Source: a virus. Taken from it: 39,011 bases of DNA. Positions within the stretch are counted from its first letter, which is position 1. Each line of letters opens with the position of its first letter. Location of the stretch: the IMG/VR virus record IMGVR_UViG_3300036852_000367, positions 1 to 39,011 of that record, one strand, 5' to 3'. This document shows positions 1 through 39,011 of this stretch, one piece after another. The translations under genes and the position numbers were made by a program. Below the pieces are notes generated by a model, which saw nothing but the letters and a program-made list of their open reading frames with translations, was not told the origin of the DNA and searched no databases.

Positions 1-210
1 GCATGTTGTGCACCGCGCGGTCCCTGTCGAATAGAGCCTCGTTGCGGCGCATGAAGAGTCGGTAAACGGTCTGCGTTAGTGACACACCGCCCTCTCCGTC
101 CAGCTCGCGCTCGAACTCCCACGACCTGCCAGGAGGTCCCGGGTGCTCCCAGACGTTGTCCTCTAGGCATGTGCCGTCCTTCAGACAGAACAGTTCGCGC
201 CCGGTAGTAT
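1..210. repeat. Left copy of the 210-bp end repeat
   Basis: These bases recur at 38802-39011 in the same orientation with one difference (G at 128, A at 38929). The repeat lies inside the portal gene and joining the two copies keeps the portal frame open. It therefore looks like the overlap of a circular or circularly permuted genome rather than a separate element. The difference is silent: a glycine codon reads GGC in one copy and GGT in the other. Confidence 0.95.
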
Positions 211-1012
211 CCTCGTTGATCTGCGAGCGCCATCCCTGATGAACTCGCACGACGCGCCGCATGACCATCTTTGACTCGTTGCGAGCGCTCGGGGTAGGGC
301 TGTTGCGATTGTCGGCGTATCGAGTCTGCGATTGAACCGTTTCGACGGCTGCCAGAATCTCTGCCGACTGACCCGGGTATCGAGAGCACAGCCACTCGGG
401 GTCACGCCAGATGGTTCGGCAGAGAGTGAGTATCTGCCCGTAGCGCCCCGAGCGAACGATGCCGAGCGTCAGCCCATCATCGAGTTCAGCCTCGACCTTG
501 CCGTCTCCGGGGAAGGCGAATACCCAGTACTGACCGGTGGCACACGTGCTGATGGTTCCGCCGTGCCTGTGCAGTTCGTTGATGTTGCTGAACTGCCCAT
601 GCGGCAATTCAAACTCCGCCATCAGCGTTTCGTCGATGGCTTCCGCGGCAAGACGCTGTTCGAAGGTACCATCAGTGCTAACCATCTGCGGAGCTGGATT
701 GTCGTTGGCAAAACTCTTGCTGACGAACGTGTTGACCATGCGGCGCACGGTGTTGACGATGACCGGCACCTCGGCACCATCCCATACCTGGTCGTCGAAC
801 CCAGCAGTGCTCGCCATGTACTGGCTGGTCAGCGTCACGCCGTCGTAGGCGCAGCTGAACCGGTAGGCTTTGCTCGCCTTTGCCCAGTTGCCAGTCATGC
901 TCTCCTGACACCATGTCGCCAGAAGCTTGCACGCCTTATCAGTCGATTCCTGCCAGAAGCAGGACGCCGGTATTGCGGCGTTGGTTACGCGCTCTGTTCG
1001 TCGTTTACGCAC
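1..1012 (-). CDS. Portal protein, N-terminal part (split by the window ends)
   Basis: The minus frame is open from a stop at 1019-1021 down to base 1 and continues in frame at 38801. The whole gene (1012 to 1, then 38801 to 37819) is 1995 nt, about 664 aa, close to P22-class portals. The portal forms the dodecameric ring at the head vertex through which DNA enters and leaves. I chose GTG at 1012 because it overlaps the upstream stop by 8 nt, like its neighbours. ATG at 898, preceded by AGGAG at short spacing, is a real alternative and would give 626 aa. Recognisable stretches include SKAYRFSCAYDGV and HQGWRSQINEDTTG. The assignment rests on size, composition and position next to the scaffold and terminase genes; I see no single diagnostic motif. 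Confidence 0.75.
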   Translation of the reverse strand, partial: MRKRRTERVTNAAIPASCFWQESTDKACKLLATWCQESMTGNWAKASKAYRFSCAYDGVTLTSQYMASTAGFDDQVWDGAEVPVIVNTVRRMVNTFVSKSFANDNPAPQMVSTDGTFEQRLAAEAIDETLMAEFELPHGQFSNINELHRHGGTISTCATGQYWVFAFPGDGKVEAELDDGLTLGIVRSGRYGQILTLCRTIWRDPEWLCSRYPGQSAEILAAVETVQSQTRYADNRNSPTPSARNESKMVMRRVVRVHQGWRSQINEDTTGRELFCLKDGTCLEDNVWEHPGPPGRSWEFERELDGEGGVSLTQTVYRLFMRRNEALFDRDRAVHNM

Positions 1013-4000
1013 GGTTGGTCACGCCTTTGGCTATTGCTGATAGTCCCCTAGCCTCTGGCGCTTGTTCACTCGGAGGCTTCAAGTTGTCCATCTTCATCCC
1101 GGCTCCCGCCGGCCGCCGCTGCTCGTACTGCTGTATGAACTGCGCGGCTTTCCAGGACTGTCCCGGTCCTGCGATGCCGTCGCTCTGAAACAGTATGTCG
1201 AGCCATTGCTTGGTCTGCGCAGGCATCTGCGAGTAGTTGTTTGCCGCTTCCTCGGTGACAGCAGCGAGCAGACTCTGGTAGGCGCCCGGCTCTACCACGG
1301 CGAGCGCTTTGACCTGGGCAGGCGTTGCTGAGCCATTGCCTACGGCTTCTACCACGGTCTCAGGATTCATGGCCGAGTTCCACACCACGGCGAAGTCACG
1401 CAGCGCGCTCTGGCTCGGAGGGATGCCACGGGGATAGGCGATGCTCGTTTGGATGCCGGCGGGCAGGTTCGCTGTGACGTACGACGTGGCGCGCATGACG
1501 TGGGCGGCCATGTCCTGAAACAGCTTCGGGTTCTCGCGCGGCAGGTCGCCAAAGCTTTCGGCCATGGCGTTTGGCAGGATGGTAGGGTCCCGCTGTAGCT
1601 CGGCCAGCATATGGCTCCGTGCGGCGAAGGCCTCAGCAGGTCCAGGGAAACCCTCAGAGAACGTAGCGAGAGCACCAGGCGCTACCTTGCCCACCGCAGC
1701 CGATCCACGCTCTACAGCGCTCATGGCCCCGCGCGCCAGCTGCCGAGCGGAGGCCTTGATGGCTGCCTGACCGCTGGCGTCGAGGCTTCCCCACAGGAAC
1801 CTGGCTCCCTTCACGGCGAGGCCCATGCCCGGTATCGCGTGTCCGATAGCCCGCTCAGCAATCCACTCCACGGCTTCTTGACCGGCTTCTTTCAGAAACG
1901 ACTTCTTGGGCGACTCTGCCTTGGCGGACACCGGTGCGGGCGCAGGAGCGGGTGCGGCGCGGGAGGCAGCGCCAGCAACGTCGTCAGCTAGTCCCATACT
2001 GTCCCTGATGCGCTTGGCATCCCCAAGCATGCGCTCCGCCACCTTGTCCTTGCCGCCACCCAGATCCCACTTGGCGCGTGCCGCGGCGCGGTCCTCCAGC
2101 GCCTCTGCTAGGGCCGTCAGCTGCTCTCGGCTGGCCTGGCTAAGGTTGGCCGGGTCAAAGCCTTCCAGTGGCGCCTTGGGCATTCTGGCATGGGCGCCAT
2201 CGAAGTCCGCCATGGCCTCCGCAGCTCGTCCGAAAAGGGACTGGTCGGTGACCCCTTTCTGTAGCGCGTCGATGGCCGATTGAGGGGCTCCGGCGGCACG
2301 AAGTTCCCCGAGCGCCTGACTGGCACGCTGCATCGTGTCGAGCGCTCCCTTGGATTCGAGCAGGTCGTTTGCCGCCTTCCGGAGCAGGTCACCCGGGCCG
2401 CCTCCGACTGCTAGGGGAGACGAAGGAGGGGAAGGAGGGCCGACGCTTCCGGCCGCTTTGCCGCCCTTTCCTACTGGAATCATCCCCTCAAAGACTACCT
2501 GCTCCTTGCCGCCGTGCTTGATGACTACCCGTCCGTAGATGTCCTCTCGCCCCATCTCCCGGGCGGCAATCATGCGAGTTTTCCCGTTGTGGAGAGTGAT
2601 GGTGTTGTCGGGCTTAATCTCAAAGGTGGGCTCGTTCTTGGCATTAGCCAGCCGCCCCGTCTGTATGAAGTCCTGACCCTCTTTGATTTCGTCGACCAGC
2701 CCGCGCTGATACTTGCTGAGCCGGTCCGAGCCGCCGTAATGGGAACGAGTCACTACCCGCGACCTGCCCTTTTCGGGAACGAAGTCGTCCAGATTCCAGT
2801 CGCGAATATCGATGGGGGAACCGTCCTTTGGTTTCCAACCCTCTGGAAGCCCCTCGTGAATGCGAGCTCCGTTGCCGGCTCGCTTGGCCGTTGGCGCTAC
2901 GGGCTCGGTGTCGTTCGCCGCCTTCAGCGGGATGTCCCCCTCGAATATGACCTTACCAGTTTCACCGTCGACGTACCGGCCGTGGATGGTGTCGCGCCCA
3001 AGCTCCTGAGCGGCGGTGAGCCGGTGGCGTCCGTCGCGAAGCACGAGGTCCCCGCCGTCATTGACCAGTGTGATTCCGCCGGAAGCGTCGTTGGCTGGCA
3101 TCTTGCCGGTGGCCGCGAATTCGGGATGCTCTTTCAGCTTGGCAACCCGAGCCAGGTCGTCTGCACCTTCGATGGGCAGAGCCTTAAGATCCTCCAGCGA
3201 CTTGCCAGCCAGGCTCACCGGGGCGGTGGCAGCCGGAGCTGCTGCGACAGGAGCAGGTGCTACGGGCTCCAGTTTGCCAGCCATTACGCGCAGGTCCTCA
3301 GCCGTCTGGGTTGCCCATTGCGTCTGGTTGGGCGCATCCTTAGGCATCAGGCGCTTGAGCGTTGCATTGTCCAGGTCGCTCTTGACTAGCGACTCCGGCG
3401 CCCTGGTGGCCACGTCAGTTACTTCCTGCTGGACTCTCTCCAGATGCGCCGGTGCGTTATTGACCAACACGGCATCACGGGCCGGGCCTGGGGGTAGGCT
3501 GTCCACAGACTTCGTGGCGCGCGCTGCAGCCTTGGCTTCCAGCTGCACGCCGACATTCTCTCCGACCTCTCCAGCAGCCGCCGCCACGGCGCTGTCTGCA
3601 GTGGCCAGCGCTCGCGATCCACGGCGCAGTACAGCCGGTATTGCGGCAGAGAACAGCGCCCCGCCTATGCCGGCGATGGCCACATTGCTGGCGTTTAGCT
3701 CCCGGTTCTCCCATTGGGCCTGCGCGTTCTCCTCTGCTAGGCCTGCTCCCACTCCTTCAGCTGCGCCCACGACCGCAGCTCCTGCGCCAAGCGCGCCCGC
3801 TGCGCCACCCGTAATAGCCATCGGGATTGCGCTGCCAACAATGCGCGCTCCGAGCGCCACGCCAGGCGACGCCTGTTCGAGAGCCGCTCGCCGTTCTTCT
3901 GCTCCTTCACCAAAGTCCTCCTTGCCGATTGCGCCTGCCGTTGCCGTATTCAGACCAAGCTCAATGGCGCCACGTGTCTGCGCCTCAGTGGTGGAATTCT

Positions 4001-4205
4001 CCAGGAACTTGGCGCGCTTCTCGATATCCTCTGGAGTGGCAGGCTTCAGTCCGCGAGCGCTCAGCGCTTTCTGCTGCGCGTCGCCTAGCGCATCCTTGGC
4101 AAAGACCTCAATCTTGCCGTCCTGACCAACGAACGTGGCCGCGCTCTGGTCCGCGGCGCGAGCGCGCAGTTTCTCCCAAGGCTTTGGCTCTTGCTGCTCG
4201 GCCAT
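1005..4205 (-). CDS. Large internal virion (ejection-type) protein with duplicated ParB/Srx-like motifs
   Basis: This 1066-aa protein has the features of podoviral ejection proteins, which are packed in the head and pass into the host envelope during infection. Residues about 110-165 are glycine/alanine-rich and hydrophobic (IPMAITGGAAGALGAG), followed by a second hydrophobic stretch (VAIAGIGGALFSAAIPAV), which suits membrane insertion. Near residue 388 is DGRHRLTAAQELG and near 537 is NGKTRMIAAREMG. Both resemble the GxxR-containing core of ParB/sulfiredoxin-like domains, which is unusual in a virion protein. The rest is helical and alanine-rich, with proline/alanine linkers. ATG at 4205 overlaps the upstream stop (TGATG), and the stop overlaps the proposed portal start. 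Enzymatic activity of the ParB-like repeats is unproven. Confidence 0.7.
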   Translation of the reverse strand: MAEQQEPKPWEKLRARAADQSAATFVGQDGKIEVFAKDALGDAQQKALSARGLKPATPEDIEKRAKFLENSTTEAQTRGAIELGLNTATAGAIGKEDFGEGAEERRAALEQASPGVALGARIVGSAIPMAITGGAAGALGAGAAVVGAAEGVGAGLAEENAQAQWENRELNASNVAIAGIGGALFSAAIPAVLRRGSRALATADSAVAAAAGEVGENVGVQLEAKAAARATKSVDSLPPGPARDAVLVNNAPAHLERVQQEVTDVATRAPESLVKSDLDNATLKRLMPKDAPNQTQWATQTAEDLRVMAGKLEPVAPAPVAAAPAATAPVSLAGKSLEDLKALPIEGADDLARVAKLKEHPEFAATGKMPANDASGGITLVNDGGDLVLRDGRHRLTAAQELGRDTIHGRYVDGETGKVIFEGDIPLKAANDTEPVAPTAKRAGNGARIHEGLPEGWKPKDGSPIDIRDWNLDDFVPEKGRSRVVTRSHYGGSDRLSKYQRGLVDEIKEGQDFIQTGRLANAKNEPTFEIKPDNTITLHNGKTRMIAAREMGREDIYGRVVIKHGGKEQVVFEGMIPVGKGGKAAGSVGPPSPPSSPLAVGGGPGDLLRKAANDLLESKGALDTMQRASQALGELRAAGAPQSAIDALQKGVTDQSLFGRAAEAMADFDGAHARMPKAPLEGFDPANLSQASREQLTALAEALEDRAAARAKWDLGGGKDKVAERMLGDAKRIRDSMGLADDVAGAASRAAPAPAPAPVSAKAESPKKSFLKEAGQEAVEWIAERAIGHAIPGMGLAVKGARFLWGSLDASGQAAIKASARQLARGAMSAVERGSAAVGKVAPGALATFSEGFPGPAEAFAARSHMLAELQRDPTILPNAMAESFGDLPRENPKLFQDMAAHVMRATSYVTANLPAGIQTSIAYPRGIPPSQSALRDFAVVWNSAMNPETVVEAVGNGSATPAQVKALAVVEPGAYQSLLAAVTEEAANNYSQMPAQTKQWLDILFQSDGIAGPGQSWKAAQFIQQYEQRRPAGAGMKMDNLKPPSEQAPEARGLSAIAKGVTNRA

Positions 4206-5740
4206 CAGTATTGTTCTGCCTGTTCAGCAGGAGCCTCGGGCGCTGCATTCTTCACGGCGTCCTCCTGGTCTGCGATGAGCTGATCGAGACGCTGCAGGCT
4301 TCCAGGGATATCGCTGTCGTTCTTGGGCATACCGAGCGACTGAACCATGTTCTGCGTGTTCTTGTTGTTTGGCTCTCTAACGAGCCGCATCAGGTTGCCG
4401 ATCTCCAGCTCTCCGAGAGCGGTAGCCGCTTCCTTCTGCTCGGGCGGAAGCCCGCCAAAGAACTCCTGAACGCTGTTGGCGCCGAGCTTGTCCTGCCAAC
4501 CAACGACGCCCTGCAGAGCGCCGCTCTTGCTTGCGCGCTGCAGCGTGTCGCGCAAACGGTATAGCTGCCGCAGATTGGCTTGGTCATCGTGCTGAGCCTT
4601 GGTCGGCTTCGCGCCAGCGGCAGGCCCGGTCTGTGTGGAATTGACCGTGTTGCGCGCGTCCGTCTTGGTAACTGTCGTCGCAAGCATCTTGGCCCGGTCC
4701 TCATCGCGCAGGTCTGCTTGCAGCCGCTGTTTGGCCGCCGCAGAGTCGAGGAACGTAGCTTCCTCTGCAGAGCTAGCCAGAAGCTTGCGAGCCTCCAGCA
4801 CTTGCGCAGCAGCCTCGTGCGCATCGCTCGCCGCGCTCAGCATTCCTGCCTGCGCAGCTTCCGCGCTCTCACCTGCGGACTCGATGCGCTGCTTGCGCTG
4901 GTCTTCCTGCTGCTTGATTGATGCCTGCACCATCTTGTCAATCATGTCGTACGGCTCGACAGCGTAGCCACGCCCACGGGCAGCGTTGAGACGAGCGACA
5001 CCAGAATCGAGTGCAGCGAGTGCACCTCCTAGACCTGCGATGAAAGCCCACTCCTGCTTCTCTCCGCCCCATGCTTGGGATGGGTCAATTTTCTGCGCGC
5101 GAGCCGCCTTGCGCTCTTCAAGCGCCGATGAGTAGGCCTGCTTGTACTGCTGTTCGGCATCAAGTGCTCCGACCTGGCGCTGAAAGCCAGACTGATAGTC
5201 CTGCTTGGCGCGAGCCTGGCGCTGCTCGGAGACCTGCTGCCCAGCCTGCCGCTCTGCATTGATGGCGGCGTTGGTATCGGCAGTAGTCTTTGCGCCTGCA
5301 GATTCCAGCTTTGCTTTGCTGGCTTGATCCATTCCAGAGGTGGATGTGGAATGTTGGTTAGTGGTCTGCGTTTCGCTTTTCGTGGCCATTGCCGGGCCGC
5401 CCCCGGGCTGGTCGATGAGCGTGGCGCGCGGCTGCCCAGCGGGGGCGATAGGCGGAACCGTTACGGGCGCCTTTGGCTGATCCGGTAGCACCGTCGGGTT
5501 GTTCATCGGCCCGACCGTGCTCGGCTGCGCCAATGCCGCTGCGTCGTCCGTGCTCACTCCAGCGAGCGAGTTCTGAACAGGAGCCGGAGACTGTGGCGGG
5601 GCAACGGCCGCGTAAGCCTCCGGAGACGGCGGCTGCATCTCGCGTTCGAACGATCCATCAGGGTCGATGAGGTGAACCGTCGGCCCACCCTCGTGCTCGA
5701 TGGTCGAGTAGCCGTCAGCGTGGCGCGTATACTTTGGCAT
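4205..5740 (-). CDS. Probable ejection/internal virion protein, coiled-coil rich
   Basis: This predicted 511-aa protein starts at ATG 5740 (MPKYTRHADG), which overlaps the upstream TAA by one base; the frame is open further upstream but enters the preceding gene. Residues 1-130 are proline-rich and probably disordered. Residues about 150-400 are Ala/Gln/Glu/Arg-rich and should form long helices or coiled coils, and a short hydrophobic patch (FIAGLGGALAAL) lies near residue 230. No enzymatic motif is visible. Its place between two other long alanine-rich proteins, just upstream of portal in transcription order, matches the ejection-protein cluster of podoviruses. The precise role is inferred from position and composition only. 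Confidence 0.65.
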   Translation of the reverse strand: MPKYTRHADGYSTIEHEGGPTVHLIDPDGSFEREMQPPSPEAYAAVAPPQSPAPVQNSLAGVSTDDAAALAQPSTVGPMNNPTVLPDQPKAPVTVPPIAPAGQPRATLIDQPGGGPAMATKSETQTTNQHSTSTSGMDQASKAKLESAGAKTTADTNAAINAERQAGQQVSEQRQARAKQDYQSGFQRQVGALDAEQQYKQAYSSALEERKAARAQKIDPSQAWGGEKQEWAFIAGLGGALAALDSGVARLNAARGRGYAVEPYDMIDKMVQASIKQQEDQRKQRIESAGESAEAAQAGMLSAASDAHEAAAQVLEARKLLASSAEEATFLDSAAAKQRLQADLRDEDRAKMLATTVTKTDARNTVNSTQTGPAAGAKPTKAQHDDQANLRQLYRLRDTLQRASKSGALQGVVGWQDKLGANSVQEFFGGLPPEQKEAATALGELEIGNLMRLVREPNNKNTQNMVQSLGMPKNDSDIPGSLQRLDQLIADQEDAVKNAAPEAPAEQAEQY

Positions 5741-6801
5741 TACCAGAGACCACTTTGCTTGCCGGCAGCATATGTACCAACAGCCGACTTTGCAGTGCCA
5801 GTTAGCGCACCTACGACATCGAGGAAGCCGACTTCCTGGCTTTGCTTGAACTGTTTCCACTGCTGCTCAAGGCCGGCCTTCCGCAGAGCCTCCTGAGCTC
5901 GCGCGGCCCGTTCCTGCTCGGAAAACTGAGACCAATCGAGCTTGAGGTTCTCCAGCGCAAGCTTGGCCTGCGAGAGGAACTTAGCCTCGTCGCTAGTCAG
6001 CGTCATGTCCCTGCCAAGCGCCTGAGAGATTCCCTGCGCCACTTCCAGACCGGTGTTCGTTTCAGCCTGCGCCTGCTGCAAATCCTGAGCTCGCGTCCCG
6101 CCGGCAACGTCAGCGAATTGCCCGGCGGTCTGCGCCATGAGCTGAGTGTTCTGCCGCTGCTGATTGACGGCGTCGTTGGCAGCCGCGCTCTGAATGGCAG
6201 GAGCTTGCTGGATAGCCTGGAACATGGCCGCTTGCCGGGCTCCTGCGCCACCAGGAGCGCTACGAGCTACGGCTAGCGTCTGGCTCGTGGCGCGCTTGGC
6301 ATTCGCGTCAGCAGCCGCGTTGGGGTCGTATGCTGCCAGCTTGTTATATATGTCACGCTGCATACCTAGCGCTTCGTTCTGCGTTGCGCGTGCCTGGTCA
6401 GCCTCCGTCGTGTCGAGCTTGACGTTGCCGTATCGGTCTACGATGTCATTGGTCTGACCGGTGCGCGTCTGCGCTGCGCCCTGTACGGGGGCGCCGATGT
6501 CTTCTATAGTTGGGATTGAATTCATCCCGGCATCGCCTAGTGGCGATTGACTACCCTGATCGGCATCTGGAGCAGTCGCGTAGGTGTCGGTTGGTTCAGC
6601 AGGAGGTGGGGTAACGTATCCACCAGATTCGGCATCATACTTTTGCCCGTTCGGGATGGTCATTCCCGAGGCGTTATCCATGTAGTAGCCCGGCGGGACC
6701 CATTGCTTGAACTGCTTGTTCCAGACGTAGCCAGGGCCTGGCGCAGTCCCGCCCTCTTGATTGGCGATGTGCTGCTGAGCGTTCTGTGAGTAGTCGGCCA
6801 T
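5740..6801 (-). CDS. Probable ejection/internal virion protein
   Basis: This 353-aa protein starts at ATG 6801, which overlaps the previous TAA (TAATG) and has GGAGTGG upstream. The first 130 residues are Gly/Pro/Tyr-rich with repeated aromatic patches such as PGYVWNKQFKQWVPPGYY. Residues about 130-310 are Ala/Gln/Arg-rich helices. The C-terminus (FLDVVGALTGTAKSAVGTYAAG) is weakly hydrophobic and glycine-containing. It forms a coupled run with the 511-aa and 1066-aa proteins, as expected for the three-member ejection set of P22- and T7-like phages. No sequence motif ties it to one named ejection protein. Confidence 0.6.
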   Translation of the reverse strand: MADYSQNAQQHIANQEGGTAPGPGYVWNKQFKQWVPPGYYMDNASGMTIPNGQKYDAESGGYVTPPPAEPTDTYATAPDADQGSQSPLGDAGMNSIPTIEDIGAPVQGAAQTRTGQTNDIVDRYGNVKLDTTEADQARATQNEALGMQRDIYNKLAAYDPNAAADANAKRATSQTLAVARSAPGGAGARQAAMFQAIQQAPAIQSAAANDAVNQQRQNTQLMAQTAGQFADVAGGTRAQDLQQAQAETNTGLEVAQGISQALGRDMTLTSDEAKFLSQAKLALENLKLDWSQFSEQERAARAQEALRKAGLEQQWKQFKQSQEVGFLDVVGALTGTAKSAVGTYAAGKQSGLW

Positions 6802-7151
6802 TACGGGTTCCACTCCGCCGAGTCACCCACCCACCACTCACACAGAATCTGCACCGCGCCGCTGCCGGACTTGACGATGGTCTTGATGGGTCGAGTTAGC
6901 ACGATCACGGCGTTTGCAGGGACGCTCACCGTCTTGCTGATGTCCGTGCCCTTCTGCAGGTCCTCTTGCAGGAACACGATATCAGCTGCAGCCGTGGTGC
7001 CGATGAACGTGACCGTCTGCGGCGCATGCTTGGGCATCTTGGTCACGGTCCTGAGGTCCGTGTCAGCCGCCATTCCGCTCGCGCTGGCGATGACGTGGAA
7101 AGCGTCGCTTGGGCGCGTAAGGTCAGGTTTGGGTGCGGGCTTGTTTGCCAT
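6801..7151 (-). CDS. Small beta-rich protein of the tail/ejection cluster, function unknown
   Basis: The gene encodes 116 aa. ATG 7151 is chosen over the TTG one codon upstream because AAGGAG lies about six bases before it. After a proline/lysine-rich start the protein is dominated by alternating hydrophobic residues (TVTFIGTTAAADIVFL, NAVIVLTRPIKTIVKSG), which suggests a compact beta-sandwich. It ends with an aromatic tail (CEWWVGDSAEW). It lies between the nozzle-like protein and the ejection genes and overlaps the stop codons on both sides, so a minor virion or assembly role is likely. I do not recognise the family. Confidence 0.6.
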   Translation of the reverse strand: MANKPAPKPDLTRPSDAFHVIASASGMAADTDLRTVTKMPKHAPQTVTFIGTTAAADIVFLQEDLQKGTDISKTVSVPANAVIVLTRPIKTIVKSGSGAVQILCEWWVGDSAEWNP

Positions 7152-10100
7152 CAACGTCTCCTTGCATCGCCCATTCTCTTGGGCCCGTCGTCTTCAGTGT
7201 AGTGCACCTCAATGGCGTTGCACCATGCCTGTTTGGTATTGGAAGCAGTCGATGTGATTGAAAGGCGCAGCTCGAATCGGCTGACGTCATCGCGGTTCGG
7301 GGCCCACTCCAGGTCGAAAGGGTCTCCAGCGGAGTATCCATCTGCGGCGAGCAGGTCCTGTGTCCCGAGCGACGTAAACGACTGGTCATCGGTATACTTG
7401 ATGAGAAGCTCAGCAGTGCAATCTCCCTGGTACACGCCAGTTGCCAGCATGCGCTCTACACCGCCAGCGCCAGCGCTCCCGGTGCGCGCCACATTGCCAG
7501 TGTCGACGGTCAGTGGCACCGCCGTTCCCGAGCCATAGTCAGAGTCCTCCAGATAGACAACGCCGCCCTGTAGGTAAGCCAAGCGACCGTCGTGCTCGGC
7601 CAGGGCATCGACCACGCCGACGTCGTCAATGAACCATTGGTCCGTGACCTGATCCCAAAGGGCAATCACGCCGTCATCGCCTGCATCGTTCTGCAGAGCC
7701 AGCGCCACGCATTGCTGGCCCTTCACATGGCACGCAGCCATGACGTTAGGGAACTCCAGCATCGTATCCTGAATCTCCAGTCCGACCGGCTTGGGCGCGC
7801 CTCCTGCCCACAGGTATAGTTGGTCGTCCTCCAGCTGGAACATGACGCCTTTGCCGAACTCGACCACAGACCGCCAGCCGTCAGCACGCATGCCGCCATC
7901 GCTCGGGATTCGGTACTGGCGCTGGAACTCGCCAATGCCGCGGATGTCAGGTCCCGAGCCATTGAGCAGCCATAGTTCACGTTGGGTGGCAAGAAGCCAG
8001 CTCTGAGCGAACCCCATTGCCTGCTCCAGCTCACCGCGCTGAACGCGCCCCTCGAATGCAAGGGTCCCGTTCTGCGCATAGGACACGGTCTCATCGGGCT
8101 GCAATGGCTTGCTGATGTTCCACTTGCTTGGAACGTGCAGGCCGCTGGACATGAGGCACTCGTTGCCGATGCTCAGATACTTGGCCGGCTGCGAGGCGTG
8201 GTTGTCCAGCGGTGATTGCACCTGCGTGTAAAGGACCTCCTGGTCCACCAGCGTAGAGTCCGGCATAGTGTCCACGAACGAGACCGTCTGACCCGCAAAG
8301 AACGACTGGTCTACGCTCATGGTCGACACGAGCTGCAGCAGCGAACTCGGAGTCTCGACAGTATCCACGACGTCAACCGTATTGCGCCACAGGCGGACCC
8401 TGATGCTGGAGCCGTCGTTGATTGTGCGAGCATTCAGGCGCATCGACAGGGGCACGCTGACGACGACTGTATTCGTATCCTCTGCGGCCCCCATCGTGAC
8501 CTCGAACGGAAACGACACAGGCCCTCGCGAGATGTCTCCGTTCGCATCGACGTAATCCCAAGTGGCCACGTACGTGTACGTGTGGCTATTGTCGAGCGTT
8601 CCTGTGGAGTTTGACGGCGTGATGCTCAGTATGCGCGGGCGCTCCAGCCACCCAGCCTCAGAGAGCGTCTTGCCGTCGTACTGCAGCACGATGCCGCCGC
8701 TGATGTAGAGGTTCCCGGCCATCTCTACCATCTGTCGGCGTGCCGTACTCCCGAGCTCAAACTCGGTCACATCGGGAACCTCGAAGCCGCTCGCGTCGAA
8801 CAGGCAACGGCACCAGTAGTACTTCCCGGTTGTGGCGTCCTGGGTCATGTCCGGCAGGAATTGGAAGAATCGCCCGGTCACTCCCAAGTCAGGAGCAGCC
8901 TGCGGGACCACGATATTGGAGAGCGTCGCGAAGTCTGTAGTGAGAACTGTTGAGATGACTACCACATCTCCGACCGTTCCCGAGAAGGCCACGTCTCCGA
9001 TGCGCTTGACGGCCAGCAGAGCCTCACCATCCTTTACGATGGGAGTGCTGGCTGGCAGCGAGTCACGGATAACGCACATGCGTCTCACGCTTTCGTCGTG
9101 ATCTGCAGGCCTATATGTGGCAAGAATCACAGCGTTGCTACTCGTGGGAACGCCGTTTCTGACAGCATGCATTGAGATAAGAATCTCGTCAGCGTCGTAT
9201 CTGCACACTCCCACTGAGAACGAAGTGGTCTGAATATCGTCTGTGGACTGAGTGGTTGCCCCGTACGGAGGTGCGCCGATGGTGGCTCCCGTGCTCAGAA
9301 CGTACGAGAATATTTTCAGGTCACCGCCGTGCGAGCAGACGACGGTTAGCGTGTCGCTCGTAACGTCCGCTTCGATGGCAATTGAGTCAGGGTCTGAACC
9401 AAGCGAGATGTTCGCGTACTGACCACCGCTCGGCGTAACTACCGCAAGCGAGCCATCGTACCTGCGAACCTGGATAACTCCTGTGCCTACGTCCTCTACC
9501 ACTGCTAGTGCGATGCCGTCTCCGCCCGTGACTGTGCACACGTTGAAGTAACCAAGCGTCTTGGCTGCGACAGTGATAAGCGCCGTGGCTACCTGGCTCA
9601 GCGTTGTGCTCGTTCCGGGAGTGTATGTATAGCCGAAGAGTTTCAGCCGGGTACCTCCGCCACCCGTCCCGAAGTCCGCCACAACCACCACCAACTTTGA
9701 TGCTGTGGTGGTGGCACGTCCTTTCTGAGGAATGTGGTTAGCAGTGCCGATGCTCAGCGACGAATGGGTCATCAGCTGGCCAGTCTCAGCGAGCACGATG
9801 CGAGCGTATTGCTGTCCCGTGATGCCGGACACGGTGTCACCGCGCGCTTCCCAAGTCATCAACACGTGGCCCCCAAGTGCTGAGCATGCCGCAGCGCGAG
9901 CCCCGCCAGTGGTATCGCCAAGAATGCCCAGGTCACGCAAGTCAGTGGCACTCGGCAGTCTGCGGGCGACGTTCGCCGTAGCGCGCTCAGTGCTGGCCCT
10001 CCAAGGCTGAGCGGTCAGACCCGTGTACTCGAACAGGTCGACGGCGTACCCGGGTCCTAGTTGTCCAGACCCTGGGCGCTCGTCAATGTCACCCAGAGCG

Positions 10101-10333
10101 ACCAACCTGCTATTGAGAGAGGATAGGTCGTACGCAATCATGAGGGTAGAATTCGCCGGAACGAATGCGTTCTGAACCTTCATCGACAGTGCCGTGTACC
10201 CCGCACGAACCCTGATTCGCCCTTCCCGGTCGAGCCTGCCGTTGATGACAGCTCGCAGCTTGTCAGAGCCGAGCAGCCGCTGGTCTAATTCTTGATGGCA
10301 GCCGCTGTTGAGCGGGATGGTAATCTTGGGCAT
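7151..10333 (-). CDS. Large tail protein, probable nozzle/stabilisation protein
   Basis: This 1060-aa beta-rich protein starts at ATG 10333, overlapping the endolysin stop (TGATG); no clear ribosome site is seen, so it probably depends on coupling. The N-terminus (GSDKLRAVINGRLDREGRIRVRAGYTAL, here split as LRAVINGRLDREGRI and RVRAGYTAL) resembles proteins annotated as packaged-DNA stabilisation or nozzle proteins (P22 gp10 / T7 gp12 role), which usually open with a list of parameter-like strands. The remainder has many repeated short strands with Asp/Gly turns, as in beta-propeller tail nozzles. Such proteins close the portal channel after packaging. The assignment relies on size, the N-terminal pattern and the position next to ejection genes. 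Confidence 0.6.
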   Translation of the reverse strand: MPKITIPLNSGCHQELDQRLLGSDKLRAVINGRLDREGRIRVRAGYTALSMKVQNAFVPANSTLMIAYDLSSLNSRLVALGDIDERPGSGQLGPGYAVDLFEYTGLTAQPWRASTERATANVARRLPSATDLRDLGILGDTTGGARAAACSALGGHVLMTWEARGDTVSGITGQQYARIVLAETGQLMTHSSLSIGTANHIPQKGRATTTASKLVVVVADFGTGGGGTRLKLFGYTYTPGTSTTLSQVATALITVAAKTLGYFNVCTVTGGDGIALAVVEDVGTGVIQVRRYDGSLAVVTPSGGQYANISLGSDPDSIAIEADVTSDTLTVVCSHGGDLKIFSYVLSTGATIGAPPYGATTQSTDDIQTTSFSVGVCRYDADEILISMHAVRNGVPTSSNAVILATYRPADHDESVRRMCVIRDSLPASTPIVKDGEALLAVKRIGDVAFSGTVGDVVVISTVLTTDFATLSNIVVPQAAPDLGVTGRFFQFLPDMTQDATTGKYYWCRCLFDASGFEVPDVTEFELGSTARRQMVEMAGNLYISGGIVLQYDGKTLSEAGWLERPRILSITPSNSTGTLDNSHTYTYVATWDYVDANGDISRGPVSFPFEVTMGAAEDTNTVVVSVPLSMRLNARTINDGSSIRVRLWRNTVDVVDTVETPSSLLQLVSTMSVDQSFFAGQTVSFVDTMPDSTLVDQEVLYTQVQSPLDNHASQPAKYLSIGNECLMSSGLHVPSKWNISKPLQPDETVSYAQNGTLAFEGRVQRGELEQAMGFAQSWLLATQRELWLLNGSGPDIRGIGEFQRQYRIPSDGGMRADGWRSVVEFGKGVMFQLEDDQLYLWAGGAPKPVGLEIQDTMLEFPNVMAACHVKGQQCVALALQNDAGDDGVIALWDQVTDQWFIDDVGVVDALAEHDGRLAYLQGGVVYLEDSDYGSGTAVPLTVDTGNVARTGSAGAGGVERMLATGVYQGDCTAELLIKYTDDQSFTSLGTQDLLAADGYSAGDPFDLEWAPNRDDVSRFELRLSITSTASNTKQAWCNAIEVHYTEDDGPKRMGDARRR

Positions 10334-10773
10334 CAGGGGGAAGCCTTGCAGAACATCCACATCTCGCGAGCACGCCGTGCCAGCAGCGCATCACTCGGGT
10401 GCCCACCGGCCTTGCTCCAGCGGACGAATTCACACCCTGCGCCGCGCACGTCTCCAGCGTTAAGCTTCTTGACTAGAGTTGAGGCCTCGAACCCGGAAGC
10501 TCCCACGTTGAACGCCAGCGATACCATCGCATCAAACTGTCCCTGGGTAATCTGAGGCACGTGGATAGCCCTGTCTACGGACTCCTCGAAGTGCCGCAGG
10601 TCGGCGCGCAGCAAGTCGTCTGCATGACTCTGGGTGATGACCATCCCCTGCTTAACGTCCCTGCCAGTATGTCCAACGCCAATCGTCCAAATACCAACCT
10701 GGTCCTGGTAGGCAGCAAGACGGCAGCCCTCTTCGGCAATGATGAAGTCGATGCCAGCGGGCGATGTCTTCAC
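10333..10773 (-). CDS. Endolysin, T4/lambdoid-type lysozyme (GH24)
   Basis: This 146-aa muramidase cleaves the beta-1,4 bond between N-acetylmuramic acid and N-acetylglucosamine. The catalytic pattern is clear: E15, D24 and T30 have the same spacing (9 and 6 residues) as E11, D20 and T26 of T4 lysozyme, within AEEGCRLAAYQDQVGIWTIG. The FNVG-type motif (LAFNVGASGF) of the family follows. No signal peptide or SAR helix is present, so the protein should be cytoplasmic until a holin opens the inner membrane. ATG 10773 overlaps the upstream stop (ATGA), and the gene lies in a lysis cluster with the 59-aa membrane protein. Confidence 0.93.
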   Translation of the reverse strand: MKTSPAGIDFIIAEEGCRLAAYQDQVGIWTIGVGHTGRDVKQGMVITQSHADDLLRADLRHFEESVDRAIHVPQITQGQFDAMVSLAFNVGASGFEASTLVKKLNAGDVRGAGCEFVRWSKAGGHPSDALLARRAREMWMFCKASP

Positions 10774-13605: not shown

Positions 13606-15204
13606 TCAGTTGTAGATATCCACGAGCACGGATCCCGTTCCTCCAGTGCCACCTGCTCCGCTGGTAACAGTTCCGGCACCGATTCCACCTGTTACGTTGC
13701 AGCCACCACCGCCACCGCCACCGCCGCCGGGGAAGCCACCATCGCCGCCGGCAAATGCTGTCTGTGGCGTGGATCCGCGTTTGCCGCCGCCTCCGCCACC
13801 GCCAGCTCCGCTGAAATAGCGCACGTTCGTGGAGTCTGCCCCGTTGCCGCCGGCCGAGGAACCACCGGTGCCTGCCGTGCCGCCCGAGCCACTTTCGCTC
13901 ATGCCCGAGGTCACGCCGGAAGCACCTCCCGCGCCCCCGTTTACGCCGGTTCCGGAACCCGTACCGCTGGCTCCTCCGCCACCACCACCGCCTCCGCCGC
14001 GTGCGGATTGCCCGCCAGCGCCGCCTAGGCCTGTTGTGGTCACAACTTGTGCGCGCCCGCCACCCGCGGCCCCGCCGTAATTCGAGGACGTCCCCGGGAT
14101 GGTATTGGTGGTGCTGGCAGGGTCGGTAACACCAGACCCTCCTTCTCCGTCAGTGGCGCCTGGAGCCTGACCAGGTCTTCCTCCGATGTTGGTTGTACCA
14201 GCAGATATCACCTTTCCTATGACACCTGCGGACCTGGTACCGCCGCCGGTTCCGCCCATTGCCTGGGCGGTACCGGCAGCCGTTGGACCTTTTCCCGGAC
14301 CTCCTCCGAAAGCGGTCAAGAACGCGCCTACAGACGTGGTCCCTCCCACAGTGCCATCGTTGCCTGCCAGGGCTACCGTGCCAGACGCCGCGTTTCCTTT
14401 GGTACCGGCAGCGCCAACCACGATTGCCAACGGTAGGGCCGCAATGATTTCGGCTCGGCTAGTCCAGACCGGCGGGTGCATCGCGGCACCGCCGCCTGAC
14501 GTGCCTCCGGCTCCTTGGCCATCAGATACGTTGGTCCCGCCGCTGGCGCCACCTCCTCCGCCGCCCTGGCCGTACCAGCAGAACCATTCGCCAGACGGAA
14601 CATCCCCAGACGTTGTCCAAGTCGTTGTACCGACCGGGAAATCTCCGAGCGCGGTGGACATCGTGTCGATCAGGGTGAAGCCCACCCCCGCTGCCCCCGT
14701 CGGTCCAGTGGCGCCCGTCGGCCCGGTCGGCCCAGTGGGCCCCGTCGGGCCAGTGGCACCTGCGCTTCCGGAAGTACCTCCCGGTCCCGAGTACCACCCA
14801 TCGATGCCGTCACTAAGGAACCGGATGTATCCGGTCTCCGTGTACGTGGCGCGCGGCTGCTGGTTGACCTTACCTGAGGTCACAAGGGCGCCATTGGACC
14901 TGGATGAGCTCGTTACCGTCAGAGCTCCCCTGGAGGCGTCTAGCTCGACTGTGACGCTATCCCCGATACGGGTGCCCCTGGCAATCGGCAGCAGCAGGCG
15001 CTGTCCCTGCGTGCTCGGGAACAGCCTCAGCACGTCTCCCACCTTGGCCGTCACGACCGACTCCTGGTGGGTCGTCATCGGCGGCGGCAGTGGCAGCGCC
15101 AGCGCCAGGTCAGCCGCTATCCGGTCCAGCTCAGCGAAGATGCCCGCCGACTGCTCGTCAGTCAGACCAGGCAGGTGCCGTGAAGGTCTGCTCTTCTGGC
15201 CCAT
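13606..15204 (-). CDS. Tail fibre with collagen-like and glycine-rich domains
   Basis: This 532-aa protein follows a 280-aa putative fibre gene. Residues 1-140 are ordinary sequence. Residues about 145-170 are collagen-like GPT/GAT triplets (GPTGPTGPTGATGPTG), which trimerise in many phage fibres. From about residue 190 to the end it is extremely glycine-rich, with runs of seven or more Gly, and it closes with a short hydrophobic strand (SVLVDIYN). This is like glycine-rich distal fibre or adhesin domains that fold as polyglycine II bundles. It probably binds the host receptor. ATG 15204 has no clear ribosome site, but it follows the upstream stop by three bases, so coupling is likely. Simple-sequence structure may make this gene prone to length variation. 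Confidence 0.75.
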   Translation of the reverse strand: MGQKSRPSRHLPGLTDEQSAGIFAELDRIAADLALALPLPPPMTTHQESVVTAKVGDVLRLFPSTQGQRLLLPIARGTRIGDSVTVELDASRGALTVTSSSRSNGALVTSGKVNQQPRATYTETGYIRFLSDGIDGWYSGPGGTSGSAGATGPTGPTGPTGPTGATGPTGAAGVGFTLIDTMSTALGDFPVGTTTWTTSGDVPSGEWFCWYGQGGGGGGASGGTNVSDGQGAGGTSGGGAAMHPPVWTSRAEIIAALPLAIVVGAAGTKGNAASGTVALAGNDGTVGGTTSVGAFLTAFGGGPGKGPTAAGTAQAMGGTGGGTRSAGVIGKVISAGTTNIGGRPGQAPGATDGEGGSGVTDPASTTNTIPGTSSNYGGAAGGGRAQVVTTTGLGGAGGQSARGGGGGGGGGASGTGSGTGVNGGAGGASGVTSGMSESGSGGTAGTGGSSAGGNGADSTNVRYFSGAGGGGGGGKRGSTPQTAFAGGDGGFPGGGGGGGGGCNVTGGIGAGTVTSGAGGTGGTGSVLVDIYN

Positions 15205-31041: not shown

Positions 31042-31554
31042 ATGAACATGTGCCGATACCCAGGGTGCTCTAACCCAGCAGCCAACGAGAGAGCGCACTG
31101 CAACTGGTGTGATATGCACAGGGTCGCAATCAGGAACAGTAGGCCTATGCGGCGCATTGCCAGGGCGGCAGTCAAGAGCCTTGGCCTGCCTGATGCTGCG
31201 CGCGTCAAGTCCCCAAATCCGTACGACCACAGGTTGCCACCTCGCAAGCGCAGCGAAGGCCCGATGCGCCCCGCTGAGAAGAAGTGCCCGCAATGCTACG
31301 ATATGCCGTGGGCTCGTACGAACGAGCGCCGCAACACGGTGTCTGGCGACAGTGCTGCGGAGGGCTCTCCTGTGGTTGGAGCGAATGGTTTATGCCTCGG
31401 ATGCGGGCTACCGTGGGCTCCTGAGCCCAGGCCTGAACTGTGCGGCACGGTGCGCAGCAGTGCCGGCATCTGCGTTGACCATGGGTTGGTAGAAGGCATA
31501 CCAGTTGAGTTCAGAGGTCGCAGAAGCGACGGGAAAAGGAAAGCAGCAAAGTGA
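31042..31554 (+). CDS. Multi-zinc-knuckle protein, 170 aa
   Basis: ATG 31042 directly follows the previous stop. Three Cys-rich units are visible: MCRYPGCSNPAANERAHCNW with a following CDMHR, KKCPQCYDMPWAR, and LCLGCGLPWAPEP. Linkers are basic (PPRKRSEGPMRPAEKK). The repeated x-MPWAR / LPWAPEP ends of the second and third units suggest internal duplication. It could bind nucleic acid or host proteins. The stop overlaps the exonuclease fusion start. Family not recognised. Confidence 0.5.
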   Translation: MNMCRYPGCSNPAANERAHCNWCDMHRVAIRNSRPMRRIARAAVKSLGLPDAARVKSPNPYDHRLPPRKRSEGPMRPAEKKCPQCYDMPWARTNERRNTVSGDSAAEGSPVVGANGLCLGCGLPWAPEPRPELCGTVRSSAGICVDHGLVEGIPVEFRGRRSDGKRKAAK

Positions 31555-33278
31555 CACGAATCGCATTGGTAGATTTCAGCCACGCATTGCGCGTGCAGTA
31601 CCACGTCAGGACACCAGACGGGACGCCGACGGCAGCAGGTGAGAACACGCTTCAGCAGCTGTCTGATTGGAGGCGCAGCTTCGACCACGTCATCGTGTGC
31701 CTCGACTCACCACCGTACGCGCGGAAGCAGATTCTTCCGACGTACAAGTCGAGCCGCGAGCGCGACGACGGGTACCATCTCGTGTGCCGTTGGACCAAAG
31801 ACAGGCTCGTCAAGGATGGTTACAGCATCGCTGCGCATACAGGATCAGAGGCGGACGACGTGATTGCCACACTCGCCAAGCGACTGTGGGATCGCAACAT
31901 GAGCGCGTTCCTCATCGGCGGAGACAAGGACATGGCGCAGTGCGTGCTCGACTCGGAGACGCAGTGCGTGCGCATCATGGCTCCACTCGGCGGAGGTAAG
32001 TGGGAAGAGCGCGACACCGAGTGGGTGAAGACCAAGTACGGAGTCACTCCGGACCAGATGGCATTGTTACAGGCTCTGACAGGCGACTCCACCGATGATG
32101 TTCCGGGCATCGCTGGCATTGGCCCCAAGGGCGCAGCAAAGCTCATCAACGAGTACGGTACCATCGAGAAGATGCGCATCGCGGCCGTGGCTGCGCTCGA
32201 GGAATCGATGAAAGAAGGGGCCAAGCCGCTGGCCTCGTTCTGGAAGAAGTTCCTTGCCGGGTCGCCCGAGCTACCGAAGTGGCTTTCTCTCACCACACTG
32301 CGCTCGGACGTGCCTCTGGATGTTGACGCGCTGCTGGTAAAGCAACCCATTCAACCGCTCATGGCTACGCCGGAGAACATCGAGCACGGTGACGCATGGG
32401 AGCCGAGTGCCGAGGAACTTCAGGAGGAGCGTGAGATGCTTGCGCCGGAGGATGTAATCAGTGGCCCAAAAGTCACTACGCCAGACCAGCGCGTAACGAC
32501 GGGTACGAGCGCGGATGCGACTGTGATGCCTGCTCCTTCCGACGCTATGTCTGGCAGCAATCCAAGAAGCAACAGCGACACCGGGAAAGGATGGGCAAGC
32601 TCTGACCCAAAACCTGCGGCTGGCCCTGCCGAGTCTACCCAGCCTGCTCCTGCGCCATCATCACTGCCAAGCAATGGCACTGCGCAGCGTGCGAAGCAGC
32701 AGCCAGTCTCAGAAGAACCGGTTTCTATCGTGGTAGATAGGCCTGCGCCGCCGTCGTGGGCACTAGCGCTGCAGCCTGCGTCCGTAAAAGAGGCTGACAT
32801 ACTCTCAGCCAAGTTGTTCAACTCCAGGCACTACAACCAGTTCAGTCATGCCCCTGGGGTTCTCTCTGTGATTCTGAAAGGCAGGGAGCTTGGTCTTGGA
32901 GCAATGGCAGCTCTGGAGATGTTCTTCGTTGTGAAGGACCGTCCATACCCTAGCGCCAAGGGTCTGATGGCTCTCGCAGAGCGCGACCCTAACTGCGAAT
33001 GGATCATGGTTACTAGTGCAGACGACACTCACGCTACTGTGAAGACCAAGCATCGCAAAGCTGGGCTTCTTGAGTACACGTACACAGCAGAGAGAGCGCG
33101 CAAGGCCGGATACTTCACGGGTGGCAACAAGCACAACTGGAACACCATCACCCAAGAGATGCTCGAATCTCGCGCCTCTAGCAAGGCAGTCAACCGCTGG
33201 TACAGGTCAGCCACGTTCGGGATGCATAGCTACGAGGAAGCAATCGATACTGAAGGAGTTGAGGTGGACAATGAATAA
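31551..33278 (+). CDS. 5'-3' exonuclease (FEN type) fused to RecT-like annealing domain
   Basis: This 575-aa protein starts at GTG 31551 (GTGACACGA, overlapping the previous TGA). Residues 1-240 are a PolA-N/T5-type exonuclease: ALVDFSHALR, VCLDSPPYARKQILP, GSEADDVIATL, GGDKDMAQ and the H3TH motif TDDVPGIAGIGPKGAAKL; all metal-binding acids are present. Residues about 290-405 are a Ser/Pro/Ala-rich linker. Residues about 410-565 (VILKGRELGLGAMAALEMFF, YPSAKGLMALAERDPNCEW, ESRASSKAVNRWYRSATFG) resemble RecT-type phage annealing proteins. Exonuclease plus annealing protein form a recombination pair in lambda and Rac; here they seem joined in one chain. The exonuclease part is certain, the annealing part less so. 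Confidence 0.75.
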   Translation: MTRIALVDFSHALRVQYHVRTPDGTPTAAGENTLQQLSDWRRSFDHVIVCLDSPPYARKQILPTYKSSRERDDGYHLVCRWTKDRLVKDGYSIAAHTGSEADDVIATLAKRLWDRNMSAFLIGGDKDMAQCVLDSETQCVRIMAPLGGGKWEERDTEWVKTKYGVTPDQMALLQALTGDSTDDVPGIAGIGPKGAAKLINEYGTIEKMRIAAVAALEESMKEGAKPLASFWKKFLAGSPELPKWLSLTTLRSDVPLDVDALLVKQPIQPLMATPENIEHGDAWEPSAEELQEEREMLAPEDVISGPKVTTPDQRVTTGTSADATVMPAPSDAMSGSNPRSNSDTGKGWASSDPKPAAGPAESTQPAPAPSSLPSNGTAQRAKQQPVSEEPVSIVVDRPAPPSWALALQPASVKEADILSAKLFNSRHYNQFSHAPGVLSVILKGRELGLGAMAALEMFFVVKDRPYPSAKGLMALAERDPNCEWIMVTSADDTHATVKTKHRKAGLLEYTYTAERARKAGYFTGGNKHNWNTITQEMLESRASSKAVNRWYRSATFGMHSYEEAIDTEGVEVDNE

Positions 33279-36891: not shown

Positions 36892-37871
36892 CCGCGCCTC
36901 TTTGCGATGATGCGTGCGGCCGCTGCGTGGCGTTCCTCGAACGACTTACCAGAGGTGCGTGGCTCCGGAGCTGGCTTGCGCTCGGAGCGTTCCTTGCTCG
37001 CTGCCGGCGCTGGTTTGGTCTCCGGCTTTGGCGGCGGGTCGGCCAGCTTCGCCACTGGCTTCTTCAGTCCAAGCGCTTCTGCCTCAGCCAGCTTGGATGC
37101 GACCACGGCATCCCCTGCCTGCTTGAAGGTGATACGGAACGCCTTGGCACTCGGATCCCATGCCCGCTCCAGTTCTTGCAGAACGAGCTCAGGTCCGTTC
37201 TTGAGCTTGAGCACGTCGTGACCTGTGAGTTTGGCTGCTACGTTCTTGACGGCCGTCTCTCGCGTTGCGCCCTGCTCGCGCGCTTCCTGCTCGCGCTTCT
37301 TCTGAGCCTCGAATTCGCGCTTCTCCTTCGTGAAGTTGTCTCGCTCTTCCAGCTCCTTCAGCTTCTCGGGTGAGAGCCCCGCAGTGGCGCGCGCAATCTT
37401 CTGGGTGATGGTGGCAAAGTCATCCTTGAAGATATACTGAATGTACTTGGCAGCGGCATGGTAGTTCTTGGCGTCGTATTCCTTGGCTGCAGCCTCTGGG
37501 TCGCCGAACCTGGACTGTAGGGAAGCCTCAGCTCTAGCCACGGCTGTCTCGCGCGTGGTTAGCTTGGCCTCCTTGGCAGCGACTCGCCGCTCGCGCCGCT
37601 CTGCGATGGCATGCCGCTTGTCCACGTCAGAAGCCTTCTTGGCTTCGGGATCCGGCTCCTTCTTCTCGGGCTCCGGAGTGGACGTAGGCTGGTCGTCGGC
37701 AGCGGGAGCAAGCTTCTCCTTGGGAGGCTCCTTGCCCGTGCGCGCGGCAGCCTTTGCCTGGCGTTGTGCGAATGACGCATCCCGCTCTTCGCGAGACTTG
37801 TCGCCTGTGGTTTTGACTTCAGGCTGGGGCGCTTGCGCCGCCTGCTCCTGGGGTTGCTGCTGGTCCGCCAC
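36888..37871 (-). CDS. Scaffold candidate, charged helical protein
   Basis: This 327-aa protein starts at GTG 37871 with GGGAG six bases upstream and overlaps the portal 3' end by 53 nt. It is highly charged and mostly helical: an N-terminal Gln/Pro/Lys/Glu-rich disordered part, a central coiled coil (HAIAERRERRVAAKEAKLTT, ERDNFTKEKREFEAQKKREQ) and a basic C-terminus (HAAAARIIAKRRG). Such composition and position next to portal are typical of internal scaffolds that guide coat assembly and bind coat by a basic C-terminus. The coat gene is not adjacent. Confidence 0.65.
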   Translation of the reverse strand: MADQQQPQEQAAQAPQPEVKTTGDKSREERDASFAQRQAKAAARTGKEPPKEKLAPAADDQPTSTPEPEKKEPDPEAKKASDVDKRHAIAERRERRVAAKEAKLTTRETAVARAEASLQSRFGDPEAAAKEYDAKNYHAAAKYIQYIFKDDFATITQKIARATAGLSPEKLKELEERDNFTKEKREFEAQKKREQEAREQGATRETAVKNVAAKLTGHDVLKLKNGPELVLQELERAWDPSAKAFRITFKQAGDAVVASKLAEAEALGLKKPVAKLADPPPKPETKPAPAASKERSERKPAPEPRTSGKSFEERHAAAARIIAKRRG

Positions 37872-39011
37872 TACTTGCTCCCGGTGGTGGAGGCGCGCCG
37901 CCGGCCATGGCCGCTAGCTCCGCCTCACGTTGCATCTCTTGGTCGATTAGCTCGGTGCACTCATCCATGAATCGCTCGAAGTAAGCGAGCTTGTTCTGCG
38001 GAGCACCCTGGTCGATTGCCTCGTCGTACTCGTAAGAGCAGATTGACAGCGCTGCGGCAAGTCCTTCCTTGCGCCACCACTTGAGTGGAGAGCGATAGAA
38101 GTTGGGCTGCATCATCTCTTCAGGAGTGGCGCGCAGCCACTTACTGCACCGCCCTTCGACGGATGACTCAACGCGGTATGCCTTATTCTCCGCATGCGAT
38201 TCGTCGAATGTCTTCCAGGTCTCTACCAGGTCTGCACCTGTGAAACGCCCTGCCGGGTCCTGAAGCAACCGCTCAGCCTTCTCGAGTCGCGCTTTGGGGG
38301 AATCCTTCTCCTCCGAAGCTGGCTTGATTCCAAGAACGTACTTGGAATCATCGAGGTCTAGGTCATCACCGGTCAGCTGACGGCGCTTCTTTGCGTCTCC
38401 CACCCAACGGCTGTACTTGTTCTCGACGACCTTCTGCAGAGCCCATATGAACAACTGTGCGCAGTCAACGGCACGGAATTGAATGAGCCGTCGCTCGGCA
38501 TCAGCGAAGTTCTCCGTGTAGTAGCTGGCAGTCAGAGATTCATGCAGACCGCTCGTTGTGCCCGGCTGGCGCGCTCCGGATGTCTGCGCCTTGGCGATGC
38601 CAGTCACGTCGTGCATGTGCTCGCCATAGCTATTGACCAGGTCCGTGCTGGCCTGGCTCAGATTCGGCATCTCGAATGCCTTTATGGCAGAGTTGACGTT
38701 GCCGGTAATCTCCCAGATGGCAACGCCCGTTGCGCCTTGAATCTGAGAGTTGAGCGCCTCAGATTCGCCGGTGCCTTTCTGGCAAAGGAAACCAACGAGC
38801 GGCATGTTGTGCACCGCGCGGTCCCTGTCGAATAGAGCCTCGTTGCGGCGCATGAAGAGTCGGTAAACGGTCTGCGTTAGTGACACACCGCCCTCTCCGT
38901 CCAGCTCGCGCTCGAACTCCCACGACCTACCAGGAGGTCCCGGGTGCTCCCAGACGTTGTCCTCTAGGCATGTGCCGTCCTTCAGACAGAACAGTTCGCG
39001 CCCGGTAGTAT
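37819..39011 (-). CDS. Portal protein, C-terminal part (split by the window ends)
   Basis: This is the remainder of the gene that starts at 1012; 38802-39011 duplicates 1-210. Visible segments include TQTVYRLFMRRNEALFDRDR, NMPLVGFLCQKGTGESEAL and WVGDAKKRRQLTGDDLDLDD. After about 38750 it is helical and acidic, typical of the portal stem/wing and barrel regions. It ends in a Gly/Pro/Ala-rich tail (MAGGAPPPPGASSGGP). The last 53 nt overlap the scaffold candidate. An ATG at 38886 exists but is internal, because the frame continues upstream through the join. Confidence 0.75.
   Translation of the reverse strand, partial: TTGRELFCLKDGTCLEDNVWEHPGPPGRSWEFERELDGEGGVSLTQTVYRLFMRRNEALFDRDRAVHNMPLVGFLCQKGTGESEALNSQIQGATGVAIWEITGNVNSAIKAFEMPNLSQASTDLVNSYGEHMHDVTGIAKAQTSGARQPGTTSGLHESLTASYYTENFADAERRLIQFRAVDCAQLFIWALQKVVENKYSRWVGDAKKRRQLTGDDLDLDDSKYVLGIKPASEEKDSPKARLEKAERLLQDPAGRFTGADLVETWKTFDESHAENKAYRVESSVEGRCSKWLRATPEEMMQPNFYRSPLKWWRKEGLAAALSICSYEYDEAIDQGAPQNKLAYFERFMDECTELIDQEMQREAELAAMAGGAPPPPGASSGGPAATPGAGGASAPA
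38802..39011. repeat. Right copy of the 210-bp end repeat
   Basis: Identical to 1-210 except A at 38929 instead of G at 128. It lies within the portal gene and marks the circular join. Confidence 0.95.

Follow-up and report, generated by a model that had tools for sequence, protein, structure and literature searches.

The window, i.e., the whole stretch of DNA that was analyzed, comprises the 39,011 bases of an IMG/VR virus record with a GC content of 61%. A 210-bp terminal repeat joins the ends of the record, with 99.5% identity between the repeats; on account of this end repeat, the window very probably represents a complete phage genome of approximately 38.8 kb, either circularly closed or permuted. 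Recognized genes include those for the terminase large subunit (33745-35229; PF17289, E=1e-6), a lysozyme-type endolysin (10773-10333, minus strand), an HNH endonuclease, a DnaB-like helicase, and a 5'-3' exonuclease. Since no tape-measure-like gene was seen in the window and a nozzle-like gene is present, the phage would appear to be podovirus-like. The terminase had no relatives among 50,697 phage records, and searches with either the terminase or the nozzle-like protein found no related phages.

The gene under study (1005..4205, minus strand) encodes a 1066-residue protein, presumably of the ejection type, with tandem ParB/Srx-like domains. The order on the minus strand is endolysin, a nozzle-like protein of 1069 residues, a protein of 117 residues, two proteins of up to 357 and up to 551 residues, the focal protein, and a presumed portal protein of 664 residues. 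The 1069-residue product (7151..10360, minus strand) was assigned as a putative nozzle/stabilization-like tail protein from an N-terminal pattern and has no family match. The presumed portal gene runs across the 210-bp repeat, its first part (2..1012, minus strand) continuing at 38801..37819 (second part, 37819..38801, minus strand); it was named from its position and one weak fragment match (E=0.087), which the full 664-residue protein does not reproduce. The products of up to 357 residues (5740..6813, minus strand) and up to 551 residues (4205..5860, minus strand) are Ala/Gln-rich candidate ejection proteins, both without a family match, and the focal gene comes last in a run of three such Ala/Gln-rich genes that lie between the nozzle-like and presumed portal genes.

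This gene order fits an ejection-protein interval, the nozzle and portal identities being themselves predictions. By analogy, a group of three large, Ala-rich products encoded next to the nozzle and portal genes would represent an ejection-protein arrangement, like the clusters encoding gp14-16 of T7 and gp7/20/16 of P22; the proteins of these phages differ from the focal protein in that no sequence match was found and that the available parts of the literature report no ParB/Srx domain for them. Solely gene position and composition make it plausible that the focal protein is packaged in the virion and injected. It would then rank as the largest internal protein of the ejection type and would be packaged close to the portal before being ejected.

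The focal open reading frame and its tandem repeat

The codon-position composition of the focal open reading frame is the same as that of the neighboring genes, and its start codon overlaps with the upstream gene's stop codon, the junction reading TGATG. The encoded protein contains 18% Ala and no Cys and consists of an Ala/Gly-rich hydrophobic N-terminal part, the ParB/Srx-like pair in the middle, and an Ala-rich C-terminal part. A hydrophobic Gly/Ala-rich stretch spans residues 129 to 147 (3765..3821, minus strand), and the strongest hydrophobic stretch of the protein spans residues 175 to 193 (3627..3683, minus strand). Comparison with curated families recognized none, including single-sequence hmmscan against Pfam, and the Pfam scan of the whole protein revealed no recognizable HTH or nuclease domain; the ParB/Srx pair is the only recognizable domain content. 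No relatives were present among the 50,697 phage records, and full-length and domain searches of phages, plasmids, and viral and genome contigs gave no close relatives. Matches to Azospirillum and Acidiphilium plasmids were dropped, as the inspected sequences were unrelated and lacked the ParB core.

The two domains, each of approximately 90 residues with approximate borders, comprise residues 333 to 427 (copy A; 2925..3209, minus strand) and residues 492 to 578 (copy B; 2472..2732, minus strand), in agreement with the span of residues 330 to 580 proposed in a preliminary description of this DNA. The duplicated motifs that it had placed about 150 residues apart were both found, namely the P motif DGRHRLTAAQELG of copy A (residues 391 to 403; 2997..3035, minus strand), with the GxxR arginine at R395, and the P motif NGKTRMIAAREMG of copy B (residues 540 to 552; 2550..2588, minus strand), with the corresponding arginine at R544; their spacing is 149 residues. 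The segments said to follow them are likewise in place: IHGRYVD at residues 407 to 413 and IYGRVVI at residues 556 to 562, followed by the C-terminal hairpins VIFEGDIP of copy A (residues 419 to 426; 2928..2951, minus strand) and VVFEGMIP of copy B (residues 570 to 577; 2475..2498, minus strand). GxxR, the phosphate motif of the superfamily, is kept in both copies, as GRHR (G392 to R395) and GKTR (G541 to R544).

Over approximately 100 aligned residues, the copies share 35% identity (bl2seq, E=4e-14); their local score is 115, whereas none of 2000 shuffles scored above 49. The occurrence of GxxRxxAA twice is by itself unremarkable, since shuffling this Ala-rich protein gives it a P of 0.02; the remarkable feature is the full-length repeat, not the bare string. 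Duplication is the best explanation for the origin of the two domains. No third copy is present in the focal protein.

Probable assignment to the ParB/Srx superfamily

Two comparison sets were used. The first consists of related domains retrieved with a nucleotide pattern encoding the motif; it contains proteins of phages (L011-L024, L029-L035) and of a Desulfobacterota family (L036-L064). A number of these proteins are clearly ParB-like: four ParB PHROGs match that of L019 (best E=0.0013), and SbnI (6nr6) is the best sequence match in the PDB (E=0.005) to a profile of the phage group, i.e., of domains with DGRHR. Because this set was selected by the motif, similarity to it proves little alone. 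When DGxHR was masked, most of the score of copy A against the other phage ParB-like proteins vanished; with copy B, where DGxHR is missing from the outset, Nodularia gp029 and the L019 protein nevertheless ranked above chance-motif controls. The model of the Desulfobacterota ParB-like family hits two places in the focal open reading frame (30.4 bits) and none of the other open reading frames of the window above noise. The second set, 29 chromosomal ParB domains, was gathered via Pfam PF02195 and not by the motif. Against it, a profile of both copies scored 25.0 (P=5.5e-4), with the GxxR motifs aligned in register; the best of 60 column-shuffled decoys reached 16.9. ParBc_2 (PF08857), considered as a further unselected set, yielded no members from the genomes sampled.

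AlphaFold was used to predict the structure. With the single sequence of the two-domain region, the run gave a pLDDT of 41, which was unusable, and the model was discarded. Copy A was then modeled with an alignment of 20 rows containing the window copies and fetched relatives, yielding a pLDDT of 75, with values of 82 to 87 across most of the core; note that this model leans on an alignment of relatives chosen by a DGxHR-type motif. It features, in order, a helix, two strands, a helix, and two strands, and the helix at 66 to 74 begins in the GxxR motif, after a strand. In VIA-align 2, the best 24 PDB entries are all ParB/Srx proteins, with Z-scores from 5.3 to 3.0, which are modest values; unrelated entries reach at most 2.4. 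These 24 entries comprise Srx, ParB, KorB, Noc, SerK, SbnI, and the ParB-like 1vk1, with an rmsd of 3.8 over 73 residues for sulfiredoxin 6ky4 (Z 5.3) and of 4.6 over 72 residues for ParB 7o0n (Z 4.6). Foldseek returned the same sulfiredoxin 6ky4 as its best PDB entry (probability 0.66, E 0.5), and many of its viral matches are named ParB/Sulfiredoxin. Since the alignment given to AlphaFold guides the modeled fold, the fold match is support and not proof, and function lies beyond what a fold search can show.

Together, these lines make it highly likely that both domains adopt ParB/Srx folds, and the fold along with two intact GxxR motifs (R395 and R544) is well supported by computation. The two copies of a ParB/Srx-type core envisaged at the outset are supported by motif, unselected ParB profile, and predicted fold. 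That the resemblance comes down to a motif that arose by chance or convergence within a phage-specific fold is quite unlikely. Such an explanation would account for the single-sequence model without a confident fold, the weak similarity once the motif is masked, and the missing Pfam match (copy A reaches a ParB PHROG at a sub-threshold E=0.087), but it is countered by the presence of two copies, by the match to the unselected ParB profile above all decoys, and by top structural matches that are exclusively ParB/Srx.

Within the superfamily, three identities were rejected. Sulfiredoxin was dismissed because the focal protein has no cysteine, so that the catalytic cysteine of GCHR is missing. 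A canonical ParB CTPase was rejected since the ENxxR motif that follows GxxR is absent from the whole protein; the Pfam scan gave no HTH match. The ParB/Noc/KorB CTPases resemble the window domains in profile, in register on GxxR, and in predicted fold but differ in ENxxR, in the HTH, for which the focal protein gave no Pfam match, and in their DNA-clamp architecture. DdrB-ParB identity was rejected because PF18763 gave no match to the focal protein at E up to 10 (positive control, P1 DdrB, 2.1e-39) and because the profile of both copies scored 11.7 against the DdrB-ParB profile, within the decoy range.

Nearest known systems and possible functions

ParB/Srx domains are already known from virion-associated or injected phage proteins. 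They have been described in large injected phage proteins, and in phage polyvalent proteins the ParB-like domains are frequently encoded next to virion genes; DdrB of P1 is processed and packaged in the head (PMC5512222). Polyvalent proteins (Iyer et al. 2017) are characterized by several different effector domains on a single injected polypeptide. The focal protein resembles P1 DdrB (PF18763), which is packaged and presumably injected, in combining a predicted ParB/Srx domain with large size and a late-gene position, but it has GRHR and GKTR in place of GNGR, its domains are in tandem, and no metallopeptidase domain was seen in it. The free serine kinases SbnI and SerK share the DGxHR motif and the ParB/Srx fold with the phage domains, whereas the focal protein has no visible counterpart of the C-terminal part of SerK and kinase residues cannot be placed in it; direct matches of the window copies to SbnI or SerK were not significant.

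NTP binding is a general property of the ParB fold: across a range of surveyed proteins with this fold, phage proteins included, CTP, ATP, or GTP was bound, and mutation of the arginine of GxxR, the P motif, served as the loss-of-binding control (PMC12704722). Because of this survey and the virion-gene precedents (PMC5512222), we favor the reading of the focal protein as an ejection-type internal protein of a podovirus-like phage carrying a tandem NTP-binding ParB/Srx module, which as a whole has about an even chance of being correct. By analogy with the superfamily, the tandem domains would bind a nucleoside triphosphate, the identity of which is not predictable from sequence. Of the two, copy A, with DGRHR, may be more likely to act as binder or enzyme, and copy B, with NGKTR, more likely to serve as a regulatory or dimerizing partner. 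The most likely use of the injected domain would be in a step that requires NTP during entry or immediately afterward, e.g., in host takeover or counter-defense; direct nuclease action would be only one option among such uses.

A possible but less likely alternative is that ParB/Srx-like folds have been reused within the internal core for purely structural or assembly purposes, for instance in portal contacts, without nucleotide chemistry. Copy B has lost both the D and the H of DGxHR, the focal protein shows nothing recognizable as a second catalytic motif, and the VFEGxIP hairpin is common to the two copies only and absent from the other aligned ParB-like sequences, all of which would be in keeping with a structural role, as would the description of ejection proteins as poorly conserved and mainly forming conduits (PMC8954989). 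Such a role does not readily explain why both copies, despite differences at 65% of positions, have retained the arginine of GxxR and the AAxExG helix, and the occurrence of similar domains in unrelated large phage proteins suggests activity.

For the ParB-like domains of polyvalent proteins, roles as NTP-regulated DNases or in NTP sensing have been proposed (PMC5512222). That the focal protein, too, is injected and works as an NTP-regulated DNase or as an effector of host takeover, as suggested for DdrB-like domains, is unlikely given the PF18763 and DdrB-ParB profile results above, and sequence cannot predict nuclease activity. The large size and the late-gene, virion-side context do match the published pattern (PMC5512222), and the 1875-residue protein of L016 combines such a domain with HEALGH, a metallopeptidase-like sequence of the HEXXXH form described for polyvalent metallopeptidases (PMC5512222). 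More speculatively, and with a slim chance at best, the tandem module could be a nucleotide-sensing switch that, on meeting NTP in the cytoplasm after ejection, causes the ejection conduit to open or to be released; or it could be injected as a decoy for defense proteins of the ParB type, e.g., for GmrS (DUF262/ParB_n) of type IV restriction; GmrSD restriction enzymes of the ParB_n type are targets of injected T4 proteins (PMC12373910).

Under the favored reading of an ejection protein with an NTP-binding module, injected or virion-borne ParB/Srx domains would extend beyond the DdrB family to a candidate ejection protein of the podovirus type. New are the tandem arrangement, the subtype distinct from DdrB, the VFEGxIP hairpin in both copies, and the presumed podovirus-type ejection setting, all of them in a phage for which no close relatives were found. 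Residues 330 to 580 with their two arginines offer a small, concrete target for studying nucleotide binding in genome entry or early counter-defense. Parallel architectures are found in the 1875-residue protein of L016 and on the IMG/VR contig of L019/L025, where a protein of 1235 residues with one such domain is encoded in a tail-gene region, its gene following tail genes and two smaller proteins.

ParB-like domains in other phages and in Desulfobacterota

Two phage proteins from outside the window carry a ParB-like domain with the DGRHR motif. The first is gp029 of a Nodularia phage (538 aa; L004:2032-3648, + strand); downstream of its gene, after a few small genes, comes the one for the prohead scaffold and peptidase. 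The second, a protein of 1875 aa (L016:8250-13877, - strand), combines the domain with a HEALGH (HEXXXH) sequence and is not recognized by Pfam; it looks like a polyvalent protein. The ParB-like proteins of approximately 370 aa in the Desulfobacterota sequences collected by DNA pattern (L036-L064) form one conserved family, which features the pattern GSVGRYHDFDSQF ... LDGNHRxAAAKELGR and is, within the scan made here, nearly confined to Desulfobacterota genomes.

Apparent exonuclease-annealase gene and terminase region

The 575-aa product of 31551-33278 (+ strand) appears, from its domain matches, to be an exonuclease-annealase fusion, with a 5'-3' exonuclease at residues 5 to 259 (PF02739 and PF01367) and, C-terminal to it, a RecT-like annealing region at residues 441 to 543 (phrog_4171, E=8.8e-8). 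The exonuclease and terminase genes converge, and the interval that separates them holds a 22-base palindrome (33389-33410), a perfect inverted self-match that is possibly a bidirectional terminator. At its start, the gene for the large terminase subunit overlaps with an HNH/endonuclease VII-like gene (35213-35734, - strand).

Tail fibre candidate and record ends

The 532-aa protein encoded at 13606-15204 (- strand), with collagen-like GPTGPT repeats and a C-terminal part very rich in glycine, is likely a tail fibre. The window ends in a 210-bp direct repeat (1-210 and 38802-39011, one mismatch between the copies), which is crossed by the presumed portal gene.
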